NCBI GenBank assembly: GCA_001767525.1
Contig: MELF01000039.1
Location: forward strand, 55,825 to 119,824
Direction: 5' to 3'
Origin: Acidobacteria bacterium RIFCSPLOWO2_12_FULL_68_19
GTDB taxonomy: Bacteria; Acidobacteriota; Vicinamibacteria; Vicinamibacterales; UBA2999
Length of the DNA: 64,000 bases
Shown here: positions 1,361-58,775 of the stretch, piece by piece
Position numbering within the stretch: position 1 is the first letter of the stretch
Layout: each line of letters starts with the position of its first letter
Translations under genes and position numbers: made by a program
The notes under the pieces: generated by a model
Seen by the model: only the letters and a program-made list of their open reading frames with translations
The model's database searches: none
Told to the model about the DNA's origin: nothing

Positions 1361-2884
1361 TCAGGCGCCGGACGAGCAGGCGCCCTCGAGCACGTCCTTG
1401 AGCAGGACTTCCCCCTGGAGGCCGGTGCGGACGTCCTCCCGCACGGCCTGCCCCGGCTTCTTGACGATGAACGGGATGTGCAGCGGGTCGCGCTCGCGTC
1501 CACCGAATCGGTATCCGTGATCCGCCAGCACGACGAGCGTCGTCCGGTCGTACACGCCGGCGCGCTCCAGGACGGCAACGAGATCTCCTACGATGCGGTC
1601 CACGTACTCCACCTGGCGGACGTACGCCGCATCGGGCGATGTCTGGAGTGGATCGAACGGGGGATCGTACCCTTCCGCGTCGAACACGAACGGGAGGTGC
1701 GGCACGCTGAAGTGGACGAACCGGAATACCGGCGGCCGCTCCGTCGTCGGCCGGCGGGCGAATGCGACCAGCTCATTGACGAGTTCCCGCTGATGCGCAG
1801 CAAACGGCGGATTCTTCAGCAGACCGAACGGGAGCTGACGCGGCCAGAGAACAAACGTTGTCCGCAGAGGATCGAAGAGGGAGAACGCTTCCGGCGCCGA
1901 GACGTTGTAGAAGCTGCGCGAACGGCACGTATCGGCCAGCTCCGCCAGCATGTCGCAATAGGCGAGATAGTAGCCGGCCATCTCCGTCCGGAACCCCAGG
2001 CGGCGCGCCGTGCCGAAGAGGCCGTCCGGCGTGGCAGCCCGAAACGGGGTGAGCGAGCCGTCGTCCTGGCGCTCCAGTAACCCGCCGTCGTCCACTTCGA
2101 TCTCACGCACGCGTCGGGCCGCGAGAAACGACGGCAGCGCGTCTCGCGTTTCGCGCCCCGGCGCGCCGACCGACAGGTAGTGCGTCGCCCGGGAGCCGAG
2201 CCGGCCAAGCGCCGGCAACTCGCGCCGGATACGCTCAGCGTCGTCGTACACGTAGGAGAAGGACAACTCGTCGAAGAGCAACGCCAGCACCGGTGCACAC
2301 GTCCGCTCGAGGGCGGCGGTGACGGCCGGCTCCCGATCAATCCGCACCACGACGTCCGCCCGCGCGACGGATGCACCGAGATTCGCGAGCACGACGAGCG
2401 ACACCGGCGAGACGAGCACGAGCAGCCGGCGGAACCACCGGCCGAACACCGCCGGCCAGAGGAGGAGCGTCATCGCGGCCGCGACGGCCACCAGAACCGA
2501 CGCGCCGAGATCGAGCGCGCGATTTTCGCCAATCGCGATGAGCGCTTCCTGGTACGGGAGCTGCCGCGACAGGCCGGCGGCAAACGACGCCAGCGGCAGG
2601 ATACTGATGAGCACCAGCGTGGCGGTGGCAAGCCGCGTGGAACGCGGCCAGACGGCGAACACGATCCCCGCACAGGCGGTCGCCAGCACCGCCAGCACGG
2701 CCGCCGTCTCGGCCAGATCGGCGGTCTGCCACTGGAGGTAATAGATGTCGAAGGTGACTGCCGCGGCGAGCGGATAAAAGAAGAGCGCGGCGAGCGCGAG
2801 GCCCAGCCACGCAGAGACGACGACCCGCCGCGTAAGGGTCAGACCCCGGTGACGAGTCGGCTCAAGCCTTCGAAGCGGCCTCAA
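1361..2884 (-). CDS. Membrane-anchored sulfatase / alkaline-phosphatase superfamily protein (start may be GTG near 2824)
   Basis: N-terminal TM helices, then sulfatase-like domain (LALLFDELSFSYVYDD, RFVHFSVPHLPFVFD, TTLVVLADHGYRFG). Confidence 0.8.
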   Translation of the reverse strand: MRPLRRLEPTRHRGLTLTRRVVVSAWLGLALAALFFYPLAAAVTFDIYYLQWQTADLAETAAVLAVLATACAGIVFAVWPRSTRLATATLVLISILPLASFAAGLSRQLPYQEALIAIGENRALDLGASVLVAVAAAMTLLLWPAVFGRWFRRLLVLVSPVSLVVLANLGASVARADVVVRIDREPAVTAALERTCAPVLALLFDELSFSYVYDDAERIRRELPALGRLGSRATHYLSVGAPGRETRDALPSFLAARRVREIEVDDGGLLERQDDGSLTPFRAATPDGLFGTARRLGFRTEMAGYYLAYCDMLAELADTCRSRSFYNVSAPEAFSLFDPLRTTFVLWPRQLPFGLLKNPPFAAHQRELVNELVAFARRPTTERPPVFRFVHFSVPHLPFVFDAEGYDPPFDPLQTSPDAAYVRQVEYVDRIVGDLVAVLERAGVYDRTTLVVLADHGYRFGGRERDPLHIPFIVKKPGQAVREDVRTGLQGEVLLKDVLEGACSSGA

Positions 2885-2920
2885 GAACCTTGAGTGGACT
2901 CGTCACCGGGGTCTGACCCC
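2836..2920. repeat. Long inverted repeat of the GGGTCAGACCCC family at the small-protein/sulfatase junction
   Basis: gggtcagaccccggtgacgagtc (2836-2858) vs gactcgtcaccggggtctgaccc (2897-2919), 23-bp perfect arms; further ctcaag/cttgag pairing inside. Confidence 0.9.
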
Positions 2921-9566: not shown

Positions 9567-11849
9567 TCACAGTACGTTCAGCGGATCTACGTCGATGGTC
9601 ACGCGACGTTCGAGCCGCGGGTGCGCGGCCAGCGCATCCCGCAGAGCGCAGCGCATCGCCGCACGGCGGGTCCCCTTCAGGAAGAACTGCACGCGGTGCT
9701 CGCCCCGCAGCCGGCCAAGCGGCGCCGGCGCCGGACCCAGGACGATGAACGGCACATCTCTGGCGGGCGCATCGAGCTCACGCACGAGCGTTGCGGCGGC
9801 GCCGGCGGCGTCGGCGAACGTCCGCCCGCGAACGACCGCGTTGATGAGGGCCACAACCGGCGGGTAGCGCATGCTTCGGCGGTAGGCCAGTTCGCGCTCG
9901 AAGAACGTCGCATAGTCCTGGCGGCAGGCGACCTGGATGCTGTAGTGCTCCGGATAGAGCGTCTGGACAATCGCCTCGCCGGCGCGCTCGCCCCGTCCGG
10001 CCCGTCCCGCCACCTGCGTAAGCAGCTGGAACGTCCGTTCGGCGGCGCGGAAGTCCGCCAGACCGAGGCCGATATCGGCCGAAATCACGCCGACGAGCGT
10101 TACGCGCGGAAAGTCGTGTCCCTTCGCGATCATCTGCGTGCCGACGAGGATGTCGACCTCCCCGGCGGCGAACTTCGACAGCACCGTCGTGAGCGCACCC
10201 CTTCGCCTCACCGAATCGCGATCGACCCGGCGCACGCGCGCCTCCGGGAACAGCTCGATCAGGTGCTGCTCCACCTTTGCGGTGCCGACGCCCGCCTGCT
10301 CGAGGTATGGAGCGGCGCACTTCCGGCACGCCCGGGGCACGTCGTTCGAGTAGTTGCAGTAATGACAGCGGGCCTTCCACCGTCTCGACTCTTCGACACG
10401 TTCGGCATCGTGTCGAGCACGGCCGAGAGGCGGCGCCCCTCGGGACAAGCCGCTCGCCCTGTGCACGGTGAGCGAGACGCTGCAGTTCGGGCACTCGAAC
10501 GTGTCGCCGCACTGCCGGCAGAAGACCGCCGTCGAATAGCCGCGGCGATTGAGCAGCACGACCACCTGCTCGCGGCGGGAGAGTCGATCTCGGATCGCCG
10601 CGACCAGGGCACGGCTGACGATCACCTCGGGGCCCTGTTCGGCGTATTCCTCGCGCATGTTCACCAGGCGCACGCCGGCGAGGGACCGGTCCAGCACCCG
10701 GCGCTCGAGCGTCACCCGCGTGTACTTCCCGGCGGCCGCGTTCTGGTAGCTCTCGAGCGAGGGCGTGGCCGAACCGAGGACCACGAGCGCCCCTTCGGCC
10801 CTGGCGCGGACGATGGCGACGTCGCGGCCATGGTACCGGGGCGTCTCGTCCTGTTTGTAGGAGCTGTCCTGTTCCTCGTCCACGATGATGAGCCCGGTTC
10901 GTGCCAGCGGCGCGAATACCGCCGAGCGCGTGCCGACGACGACATCGACATCGCCGCGACGGATCCGCTGCCACTGGTCGTGCCGCTCGCCTCCGGAGAG
11001 CGCGCTGTGCTGAATCGCCACCCGCTCGCCGAACGCCGACCGCAGGAGCGCCGCGACCGACGGCGTGAGCGCGATTTCGGGCACGAGCAGCAGCACCTGC
11101 CGCCCCAGCCGGCAGACCTGCTCGGCCAGCCGCAGGTACACCTCCGTCTTGCCGCTGCCGGTCACGCCGTGCAGCAGCGCAACCTGGAACGTCCCAGTCT
11201 CGGCGAGCCGGGACAGCGTCGCCAGGGCCGCGTCCTGCTCACCCGTGAGCGCCCGGTCTGTGTCCCGGACAACGTCCGCCAGAGCTGCGCGCCCGAAAGG
11301 GTCGCGTTCGTCGCGCTCGGCGCGCATCGCCACCAGCCCGCGGACCGCCAGTCGGCGGAGCACGTCGGCGCCGACGCCGCGGTCCCGAAGGACCGACGCG
11401 GGCAGTCCGGCCGGCGCTGCCGCCAGCATCCCAAGCGCCTCGCGCTGCTGTGGGGTCAGACCCCGGCTTCCGGGGTCTGACCCCAGGTGCGGCGTCGCGG
11501 CGACGATCCGCCGTGTCTTGTAGCCGGACACCCGGCGGGACGTCGGCGGCAGGGCGACGCCAATCGCGTCGCCGATGCCCGCCATGTAGTACTCCGCCAC
11601 CCACTTGCACAGCTCGACGATCGCGGCCGGCAGGAACGGTTCGTGATCGAGGACCTCCTTCACGTCGCGCGTTTCGGTGTCGGGTCCTGCCGTCGGGTCG
11701 TGACCGATCACGCAGCCGACCAGGGTGCGTGTGCCGACCGGCACGCGCACCCGGGCGCCCACCGGCGGCAGATCCGGAAAACGATGCGGGACGTTGTAGG
11801 TCAGTGCATCCAGCCGGGGAACCGGGACGGCGACGGAGATGAGGCGCAC
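9567..11849 (-). CDS. priA: Primosomal protein N' (PriA), with two apparent in-frame insertions
   Basis: LLHGVTGSGKTEVYLRL, VDEEQDSSYKQDETPRYHGRD, zinc-binding CRQCGDTFECPNC...CHYCNYSNDVPRACRKC, GTQMIAKGHDFPRVTLVGV. Confidence 0.95.
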   Translation of the reverse strand: MRLISVAVPVPRLDALTYNVPHRFPDLPPVGARVRVPVGTRTLVGCVIGHDPTAGPDTETRDVKEVLDHEPFLPAAIVELCKWVAEYYMAGIGDAIGVALPPTSRRVSGYKTRRIVAATPHLGSDPGSRGLTPQQREALGMLAAAPAGLPASVLRDRGVGADVLRRLAVRGLVAMRAERDERDPFGRAALADVVRDTDRALTGEQDAALATLSRLAETGTFQVALLHGVTGSGKTEVYLRLAEQVCRLGRQVLLLVPEIALTPSVAALLRSAFGERVAIQHSALSGGERHDQWQRIRRGDVDVVVGTRSAVFAPLARTGLIIVDEEQDSSYKQDETPRYHGRDVAIVRARAEGALVVLGSATPSLESYQNAAAGKYTRVTLERRVLDRSLAGVRLVNMREEYAEQGPEVIVSRALVAAIRDRLSRREQVVVLLNRRGYSTAVFCRQCGDTFECPNCSVSLTVHRASGLSRGAPPLGRARHDAERVEESRRWKARCHYCNYSNDVPRACRKCAAPYLEQAGVGTAKVEQHLIELFPEARVRRVDRDSVRRRGALTTVLSKFAAGEVDILVGTQMIAKGHDFPRVTLVGVISADIGLGLADFRAAERTFQLLTQVAGRAGRGERAGEAIVQTLYPEHYSIQVACRQDYATFFERELAYRRSMRYPPVVALINAVVRGRTFADAAGAAATLVRELDAPARDVPFIVLGPAPAPLGRLRGEHRVQFFLKGTRRAAMRCALRDALAAHPRLERRVTIDVDPLNVL
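10371..10455 (-). repeat. Candidate in-frame repeat insertion inside the PriA zinc domain, containing an inverted repeat (10392-10417)
   Basis: About 30 extra residues (ASGLSRGAPPLGRARHDAERVEESRRWK) between TVHR and ARCHYC; TTCGACACG-N8-CGTGTCGAG arms. Confidence 0.55.
11451..11485. repeat. REP-like hairpin of the GGGGTCAGACCCC family, inside the priA coding sequence
   Basis: TGGGGTCAGACCCCGG-CTT-CCGGGGTCTGACCCCA: 16-bp perfect arms, 3-nt loop. Confidence 0.85.
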
Positions 11850-12015
11850 CGTGGAAGGCCTCTGTCTAGCGGGTGGGTCCGATCCCGCGATGTGTCGATG
11901 CGATCCGTGCGCGCCCGCGACGGTGCACCTCGGGCCTGTCCAACCCGGCGGCGGACCACAGAGCATCGCGGACGACGGGCGCCTTCACAGATCTTCTGAC
12001 CAAACGGTACACGAG

Positions 12016-54957: not shown

Positions 54958-55992
54958 GTGGCGAACCTCCGCTTTCTCGAGGCATGCCGGCGCCAACCGG
55001 TGGACGCGACGCCCGTCTGGTTCATGCGCCAGGCCGGGCGCTACATGGCCGAGTACCGGGCCTTGCGCGAGGAACACTCGCTGCTCGAGATTTGCCGGAC
55101 GCCCGAGCTGGCCGCTGAAGTCACGCTCCAGCCCATCCGCCGCATCGAGGTCGATGCGGCGATCCTCTTCTCCGACCTGCTGCTGCCGCTCGAGCCGATG
55201 GGACTCCCCTTCGACTTCGTCAAGGGCGAGGGCCCGCAGCTCGAGCGGCCGATCGGCTCGCCGGCCGACATCGACCGCCTGCGAACCTTCGAGCCGCGGG
55301 CGGCGCTCGCGCCCGTGCTCGACGCGATCAAGCTGGTGCAGCGGGAGCTGGCGGGACGCGTTCCGCTCATCGGCTTCGTGGGCGCGCCGTTCACCCTGGC
55401 GTCGTACGCCATCGAAGGCGGCCATTCGAGCAATTTCGCCCGGACCAAGGCGTTGATGTACGGTCATCCGGAGGCGTGGCACCGCCTCTCGGAGCGCCTG
55501 GCGGCGGCCGCCGCCGAGTACCTCGTGGCGCAGATCGAAGCCGGCGTCGATGCGGTCCAGATCTTCGACTCGTGGGTCGGCGTGCTGAGCCAGGCCGACT
55601 ACCGCGAGTTCGCGCTGCCGCACACGCGGCGCATCTTCGACGCGGTCGGCCGCCGGGTGCCCACCATCCACTTCGGCACCGGCACCGCCGTCATCCTGGG
55701 CGAGCTGCGGGAGGCGGGCGGCGACGTCATTGGCGTCGACTGGCGGATCCCGATTGACGTGGCGTGGGAGCGTATCGGTCTCGATCGCGGAGTTCAGGGA
55801 AATCTCGACCCGACGGTGCTGCTCGGTCCGACCGAGCGGATGTTCAGCCAGGTCGACGACATCCTGGCGCGCGTCGGCGGGCGCCCCGGACACGTCTTCA
55901 ACCTCGGGCACGGCATCCTGCCGATGACGCCGGTCGAGCACGTCCAGATGCTCGCGCAGTACGTCCACAGCGCATCGCGGCGGGCGAGATGA
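54958..55992 (+). CDS. hemE: Uroporphyrinogen decarboxylase
   Basis: FLEACRRQPVDATPVWFMRQAGRYMAEYRALREEHSLLEICRTPELAAEVTLQPI...AAILFSDLLLPLEPMG. Confidence 0.97.
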   Translation: MANLRFLEACRRQPVDATPVWFMRQAGRYMAEYRALREEHSLLEICRTPELAAEVTLQPIRRIEVDAAILFSDLLLPLEPMGLPFDFVKGEGPQLERPIGSPADIDRLRTFEPRAALAPVLDAIKLVQRELAGRVPLIGFVGAPFTLASYAIEGGHSSNFARTKALMYGHPEAWHRLSERLAAAAAEYLVAQIEAGVDAVQIFDSWVGVLSQADYREFALPHTRRIFDAVGRRVPTIHFGTGTAVILGELREAGGDVIGVDWRIPIDVAWERIGLDRGVQGNLDPTVLLGPTERMFSQVDDILARVGGRPGHVFNLGHGILPMTPVEHVQMLAQYVHSASRRAR

Positions 55993-57602: not shown

Positions 57603-58511
57603 ATGAAACCGGTTCACATCATCGGCGTGCCGCTCGACCTCGGCGCCGGCCGCCGCGGCGTCGACATGGGCCCTTCGGCCCTGCGGATCGCCGGCATGGG
57701 CGATCAGATCGCGGCGCTGGGGCGCACCGTCGTCGACAAGGGGGACCTGCCCGCCCCGATTCCCGAAACGCAGCGCCCGGCCGACACGCGCAAGAAGTAC
57801 GCGAAGGACATCGCACGAGTCTGCCACAAGCTCTTCGACCTGGCGCTCAAGTCGCTCGATGCAGGCGCCCTGCCGCTCGTCCTGGGCGGCGACCACAGCC
57901 TCGCCGCGGGATCGGTCGCCTCCAGCGCCGCCTGGGTACGGCGTACGTGCTCGCGGCCGCTCGGCCTCCTCTGGATCGACGCCCATGGCGACATGAACAC
58001 CCCCGACACGACGACGAGCGGGAACGTACACGGGATGCCGCTGGCGGCGCTGCTCGGCAACGAACCGGCCGAGCTCGCCTCGATCGGCTTCTCGCCGTCC
58101 GTGCTGCCGCAGCACACCGTGCTCGTCGGCATCCGCAACCTCGACGAGCGGGAGAAGGAGCGGATCCGCCAGTCCGGCGTCCACGTCTTCACGATGAAGG
58201 ACATCGATCGCGACGGCATCGCGTCGGTCGCCGAGCGGGCCCTCGCGCTCGCGGCCGACGGGACCGGCGGCATCCACGTCTCGTTCGACATGGACGTGTG
58301 CGACCCGTCGTTCGCACCGGGCGTCGGCACCCCCGTCAAGGGCGGGCTCGACTACCGCGAGGCGCACATGGTGATGGAAATGGTGGCCGATTCGCGCCGG
58401 CTCGTGGCACTCGACCTGGCGGAGATCAACCCGACGCTCGACCTGCGCAACACGACGGCCGAATTCGCCACGGAGCTGGCGCTATCGGCGTTCGGAAAGG
58501 GGATCCTCTAG
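57603..58511 (+). CDS. rocF: Arginase
   Basis: [89 protein letters not shown]. Confidence 0.97.
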
Positions 58512-58512
58512 C

Positions 58513-58775
58513 CTGGATTATTCACGAACGCGTCGTTCACACTGCTGGGTTCTCTCTTCTCCGTTCACACTGCTGGGTTCTCTCTTCTCCGTTCGTGTTC
58601 CGGTTCGGTTCTGCCGTTTGTCGGTCACCTTCGAGCCGGTTCGAGGTGTTCCGGCGAGGACGAGCCAGAGATCTCCGAACCTTGAACCGCGAACCCGCGA
58701 AGGGAATGTGAACACGAACCGAGCACCGAGCACCGAGAAGCGTGAACGACTGATTCATGAATAGTGCGGGCTAGG
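58513..58775. mobile_element. MITE-like element with terminal inverted repeats; contains repeat copy 2 (58632-58775)
   Basis: Left end ...ATTCACGAACGCGTCGTTCAC; right end reverse complement CCTAGCCCGCACTATTCATGAATCAGTCGTTCAC. Confidence 0.55.
58534..58589. repeat. 28-bp perfect tandem duplication
   Basis: cgttcacactgctgggttctctcttctc x2. Confidence 0.95.

Follow-up and report, generated by a model that had tools for sequence, protein, structure and literature searches.

An in-frame palindromic hairpin in priA belongs to an interspersed repeat family that flanks a RAYT-like transposase gene in an Acidobacteria genome

We analyzed a 64,000-nucleotide stretch of DNA (positions 55,825 to 119,824 of contig MELF01000039.1, hereafter "the window") from Acidobacteria bacterium RIFCSPLOWO2_12_FULL_68_19 (G000 in our set of genomes). 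The window contains a 799-aa ORF on the minus strand (9567..11966) with matches to the PriA family. The true priA start is probably downstream of the ORF start, because the homologue matches begin at residues 16-40. Within priA, positions 11451-11485 (TGGGGTCAGACCCCGGCTTCCGGGGTCTGACCCCA) form a perfect 35-nt hairpin with a 16-bp stem and a CTT loop; the computed folding energy is -21.1 kcal/mol (z = -8.0 relative to shuffled sequences). The hairpin is translated in frame, on the minus strand, as GSDPGSRGLTP, and its 33-nt core (11452-11484) reads GGGGTCAGACCCC GGAAGCC GGGGTCTGACCCC on that strand. In the protein, the encoded residues follow the 3'BD domain (residues 44-140) and precede the helicase part (from residue ~244). 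The hairpin and its in-frame translation are just as an earlier sequence-only reading of the window had described them. Elsewhere in the window, at 58508-58774, there is an apparently intergenic, imperfect long inverted repeat with 59-nt arms (75% complementary) that carries a direct duplication, TTCACACTGCTGGGTTCTCTCTTCTCCGTTC.

The priA hairpin is one member of a repeat family. A long copy at 2835..2920 has 31-nt arms that are 94% complementary, with an exact outer 13-mer on the right and a single mismatch in the one on the left (AGGGTCAGACCCC); the recurrence of the arm that had been noted at 2836-2920 is thus real. This copy overlaps the predicted 5' end of a sulfatase-family ORF (1361..2884, minus strand), so that the N-terminus predicted for this ORF includes translated element sequence (MRPLRRLEPTRHRGLTLTRR...); translation may in fact start further downstream. 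Allowing up to one mismatch, the 13-mer has seven matches in the window, against 0.12 expected. Across the 4.21-Mb genome there are 36 exact copies of GGGGTCAGACCCC and 57 of the exact 11-mer, with none of the reversed pattern in either case, which bears out the proposal that the arm belongs to an interspersed family. Exact 13-mers paired at a gap of ≤60 nt occur eight times in this genome; in a sample comprising this genome and 148 others from the phylum, single cases were found in two of the others. The 13-mer on its own is present in 29 of the 59 family and order relatives searched.

Copies in this genome range from palindromes of 23-25 nt, in which two 11-13-mers are directly adjacent, to hairpins of 85-86 nt. 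Long copies in relatives are 66-67 nt, giving a range of 66-86 nt for long palindromes overall. The element is laid out as GGGGTCAGACCCC-GGTGATG-variable-GACTCAAGG-loop-inverted copy, and the 66-nt form folds over its whole length. Next to the hairpin, two relatives have 29-nt tandem modules (GGGGTCAGACCCC plus 16 nt), in which ~4 positions between conserved blocks differ from copy to copy (e.g., GATG-NNNN-GTACC): G015 (L171, L176-L179, L181 and L183) and G014 (L188, L189 and L193-L196). The flanks of one copy in our genome (G000:C33:32282; L024:1487-1599) form an inverted repeat of their own (TCGCCTGGTGGGTG / CACCCACCAGGCGA). In G001 (L287), the likeness to this repeat is confined to the right flank, and template switching at the hairpin is one conceivable cause. 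Other palindromes, GGCGGACCTGAAGGTCCGCC and GTACGTAGTGCCGGGCTTCAGCC among them, are found at the same gene junctions in relatives, and some contain GTAG (L268, L270, L279, L286 and L290).

The sequence-only reading had suggested that a RAYT/Y1 transposase be sought, and the genome holds exactly one Y1/HUH transposase gene, of the RAYT type. This gene (G000:C5:36465-37109, minus strand) encodes a 215-aa protein that passes the Pfam Y1_Tnp profile with 48 bits (cut-off 23) and scores 74.2 bits for NCBIfam REP_Tyr_transpos, just under the cut-off of 80. The protein has the NHVH and YIELNP motifs listed for TnpAREP subclass 2.1. Its sequence continues past the Y1_Tnp match; subclass 2.1 has a C-terminal helix-turn-helix extension, and Pfam gave no HTH family for this protein. 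A comparison of its sequence with PDB chains returned no match. On either side of the gene there is a 25-bp copy of the same palindrome. The last residues of the protein and its stop codon (GVRPRV*) fall within the downstream palindrome (L038:5463-6110).

The same arrangement recurs in other genomes. The motif flanks a RAYT-like gene on both sides in seven genomes (G000, G003, G014, G015, G008, G058 and G047). Within the trio of G003, G014 and G015, interspersed copies are closer to the transposase-gene ends of the genome they come from than to the ends in the two remaining genomes (13.5/20 vs 11.3/20 in permutations, p ~0.0002). The copies in our genome are slightly closer to the G015 ends (10.0/20) than to the short ends of their own transposase gene (9.6/20). 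Across relatives, copy number does not strictly track the presence of a transposase: among motif-rich relatives, Y1_Tnp was undetectable in G024, G038, G046 and G051, and G048 has a Y1_Tnp gene whose flanks lack the motif. The association between transposase and motif is therefore strong locally but not universal. Incomplete assembly, gene loss or another enzyme could account for the motif-rich genomes with no Y1_Tnp match.

An alignment of PriA with relatives shows that the insertion is lineage-restricted. Copies of the element are present in the priA linker of four genomes: the 33-nt core in our genome, 42 nt at L069 (the closest relative, compared at the locus level), and 66 nt in both G015 and G003. 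All four have a length divisible by three, read GSDP...RGLTP, and sit directly before the (R/K/Q)Q of a native LTP(R/K)Q. In other relatives, among which linker length differs at this site, the insert is absent or unrecognizable. The possibility had been raised that the inserted residues are simply conserved in relatives lacking the repeat; this holds for LTP(R/K)Q, which is native in some repeat-free relatives, but GSDPGSRG is not native. These sites make up a comparative series in which a single in-frame palindrome of priA, a central replication gene, has forms of 33, 42 and 66 nt and is intact, perhaps decayed, or absent.

PriA is not the only protein with such an insert. TrmFO of our genome carries an in-frame copy (GSDPGSDPGSDP) at L009:1501-1537 (G000:C17:107490-107526), and relatives have in-frame copies in QueG, UvrA, a Sir2 protein, a winged-helix regulator and a spermidine-synthase-like protein. 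The TrmFO loop preceding GDYLNCP is a repeated target of palindromes. At the corresponding loci in relatives (L277, L278 and L279), this loop contains unrelated in-frame palindromes in G015 (GGGGTCGGGAGTCATTACG...) and G013 (GGCGGACC..GGTCCGCC), and in G016 a decayed copy of the priA-type element, with a score of 19 that exceeds those of all 1000 mononucleotide shuffles.

The sequence-only reading had proposed that the palindrome tolerates or selects in-frame sites. A preference for such sites is unsupported. By a coarse codon-usage criterion that took only the window as training data, with gene context assessed for each locus, most copies in this genome are outside genes or at their ends. The frame follows from stop codons: the 66-nt copies in priA and queG have a single stop-free frame on each strand, and it is the frame used in the genes; the 33- and 42-nt priA copies have more than one. 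This is the pattern that survivorship predicts, since the only open frame of the 66-nt copies is the one observed. For the priA copy, whose linker is variable, selection that removes frameshifts and stop codons accounts for the frame. We looked for empty sites and target duplications at 12 sites in six relatives, and no clean or exact one was readable, because the flanks are too variable or gave no match.

We consider it likely that the priA hairpin, at 11451..11485, derives from a TIRtron, in which inverted repeats (GGGGTCAGACCCC...) enclose a RAYT-like gene. The hairpin would be a shortened, non-autonomous version of the TIRtron ends, and the RAYT-like transposase probably moves such copies. 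The transposase would probably recognize the folded single-stranded ends and copy or move them; if it works as TnpAREP and IS200/IS605 enzymes do, its substrate would be folded single-stranded DNA and its products short hairpin copies at new sites. The outcome of such mobilization would be REPIN-like palindromes of 23-86 nt, mainly intergenic. One copy would have reached the variable priA linker, beside the native LTP(R/K)Q codons, by insertion or recombination, and may have been kept because its length is divisible by three, its GSDP...GLTP frame is stop-free and the linker tolerates the residues. Later deletions within the palindrome, from 66 to 42 to 33 nt, would have kept the frame. More generally, copies that break genes would be lost to selection, leaving those that sit in tolerant linkers, have an open frame and are a multiple of three in length. 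Such filtering is what the frame analysis and the mainly intergenic positions of the copies imply. All three checks proposed with the sequence-only reading favor a mobile palindrome: the copy number, the PriA insertion and the RAYT gene flanked by the palindrome. Transposition itself is an inference.

Two other origins for the hairpin deserve consideration. The palindrome might be kept as an RNA or DNA structure within priA, such as an mRNA hairpin, a pause or a protein-binding site, as its high stability and the still-perfect 66-nt palindrome in the G015 priA copy would allow. We regard this as improbable, given that most relatives lack a palindrome at the site, that the carriers differ in insert size and interior, and that there are further copies in intergenic DNA and in unrelated genes; moreover, a recent copy or arm-to-arm conversion would also yield perfect palindromy. 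That the hairpin is not mobile DNA, and that the palindrome arose by chance or convergence or is simply linker sequence of low complexity, might be suspected from the GC-rich linker and from the partial coincidence of the right arm with native LTP codons. We rejected this on the window count relative to expectation and the genome counts relative to the reversed control; with the transposase flanks on both sides and the folding z-scores also against it, its probability is close to nil.

For a TIRtron-derived copy, the history at priA can be read in two ways, both of which fit. The priA linker may be a hotspot that elements entered separately in two lineages, a reading to which we give even weight; entry was perhaps aided by native CTGACCCC, which encodes LTP. 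In a PriA tree built with the linker and insert left out, the four carriers fall into two clades, {own, L069} and {G003, G015}, forced by starred branches, which requires at least two changes. GGGACTC, the interior of the G003 priA copy, recurs elsewhere among G003 copies, and in G015 the priA copy has the consensus of that genome. In G018 (L046), which lacks the repeat, the site is occupied by native CGCCTGACCCCCAGACAACG, and the TrmFO loop offers a precedent in that it holds unrelated palindromes in other genera. However, a single ancestral insertion followed by decay and loss also needs at least two changes, and the priA site of G023 has a possible weak relic, ATCACCCGGGCCCGACCCC (uncorrected p ~0.007, mononucleotide shuffle); a search for relics in the priA linkers of G005, G010, G013 and G016 gave no signal. 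On this history, the G023 relic and the genome-like interiors point in opposite directions. A broader and rather doubtful proposal is that TIRtron hairpins are recurrent donors of peptide inserts, with the variable linkers of a few housekeeping proteins (PriA and TrmFO) filled repeatedly and independently, in different genera, by in-frame members of several unrelated palindrome families. If so, these linkers would largely be living and decayed mobile DNA. The observations bear on the origin of new linker sequence in conserved proteins, a principle known before; what stands out here is that the same protein loops hold such inserts in several related genera.

A literature search for the exact 13-mer found no paper. 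Like REPINs and GTAG REPs with their RAYTs (PMC3116915, PMC2817692), the element consists of inverted pairs of short repeats that form a hairpin, is interspersed and chiefly intergenic, and is linked to a single-copy RAYT. Unlike GTAG REPs, which usually exceed 100 copies per genome, it is present as 36 exact 13-mers. There is no constant GTAG (or GTGG) tag at the hairpin foot beside the listed copies, the ends of which are GGGG...CCCC, and we reject identity with a canonical GTAG REP on this basis. The sequence-only reading had called the hairpin REP-like; its ends fit the GGGGWSAS of TIRtrons (PMC3733652). The element also resembles the Rickettsia palindromic elements (Ogata et al., as cited in PMC3733652), palindromes translated in frame, including in replication and repair genes; similarly, the PriA and TrmFO inserts are in the middle of conserved genes and missing from relatives. 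Its sequence differs from that of the Rickettsia elements, and a dedicated transposase is present here. In-frame insertion is not as unusual as had been supposed from the priA case: apart from the Rickettsia elements, PMC3733652 describes in-frame REPs in replication and repair genes, uvrA among them, and different REPs at about the same recB site in two Xanthomonas species. It also reports that CGTC repeats, matching RPE-4 and RPE-6, have no dedicated transposase.

The nearest described kind is the TIRtron/TIRYT. According to Di Nocera, De Gregorio and Rocco (2013, PMC3733652), these are RAYT-like genes between inverted repeats with GGGGWSAS; some of the terminal repeats form moderately abundant families, some are self-complementary, as dimers or clusters, and one group of TIRYT transposases comes from Acidobacteria. 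Here, too, a RAYT-like gene encoding NHVH and YIELNP motifs has inverted repeats on both sides, starting GGGGTCAG, which fits GGGGWSAS; the likeness is to this consensus as given there. Our repeats differ in also being in frame in PriA, TrmFO, QueG, UvrA and other proteins, and in the 29-nt tandem modules with a variable core in some genomes. Because the main TIRtron features tested were found and the GTAG tag is missing, we place the element with this kind. PMC6006769 assigns most TIRYT transposases to TnpAREP subclass 2.1 (RAYT group 1); it names no REPs associated with this subclass and calls for further analysis. The family described here ties a RAYT with the signatures of that subclass to an interspersed hairpin family.
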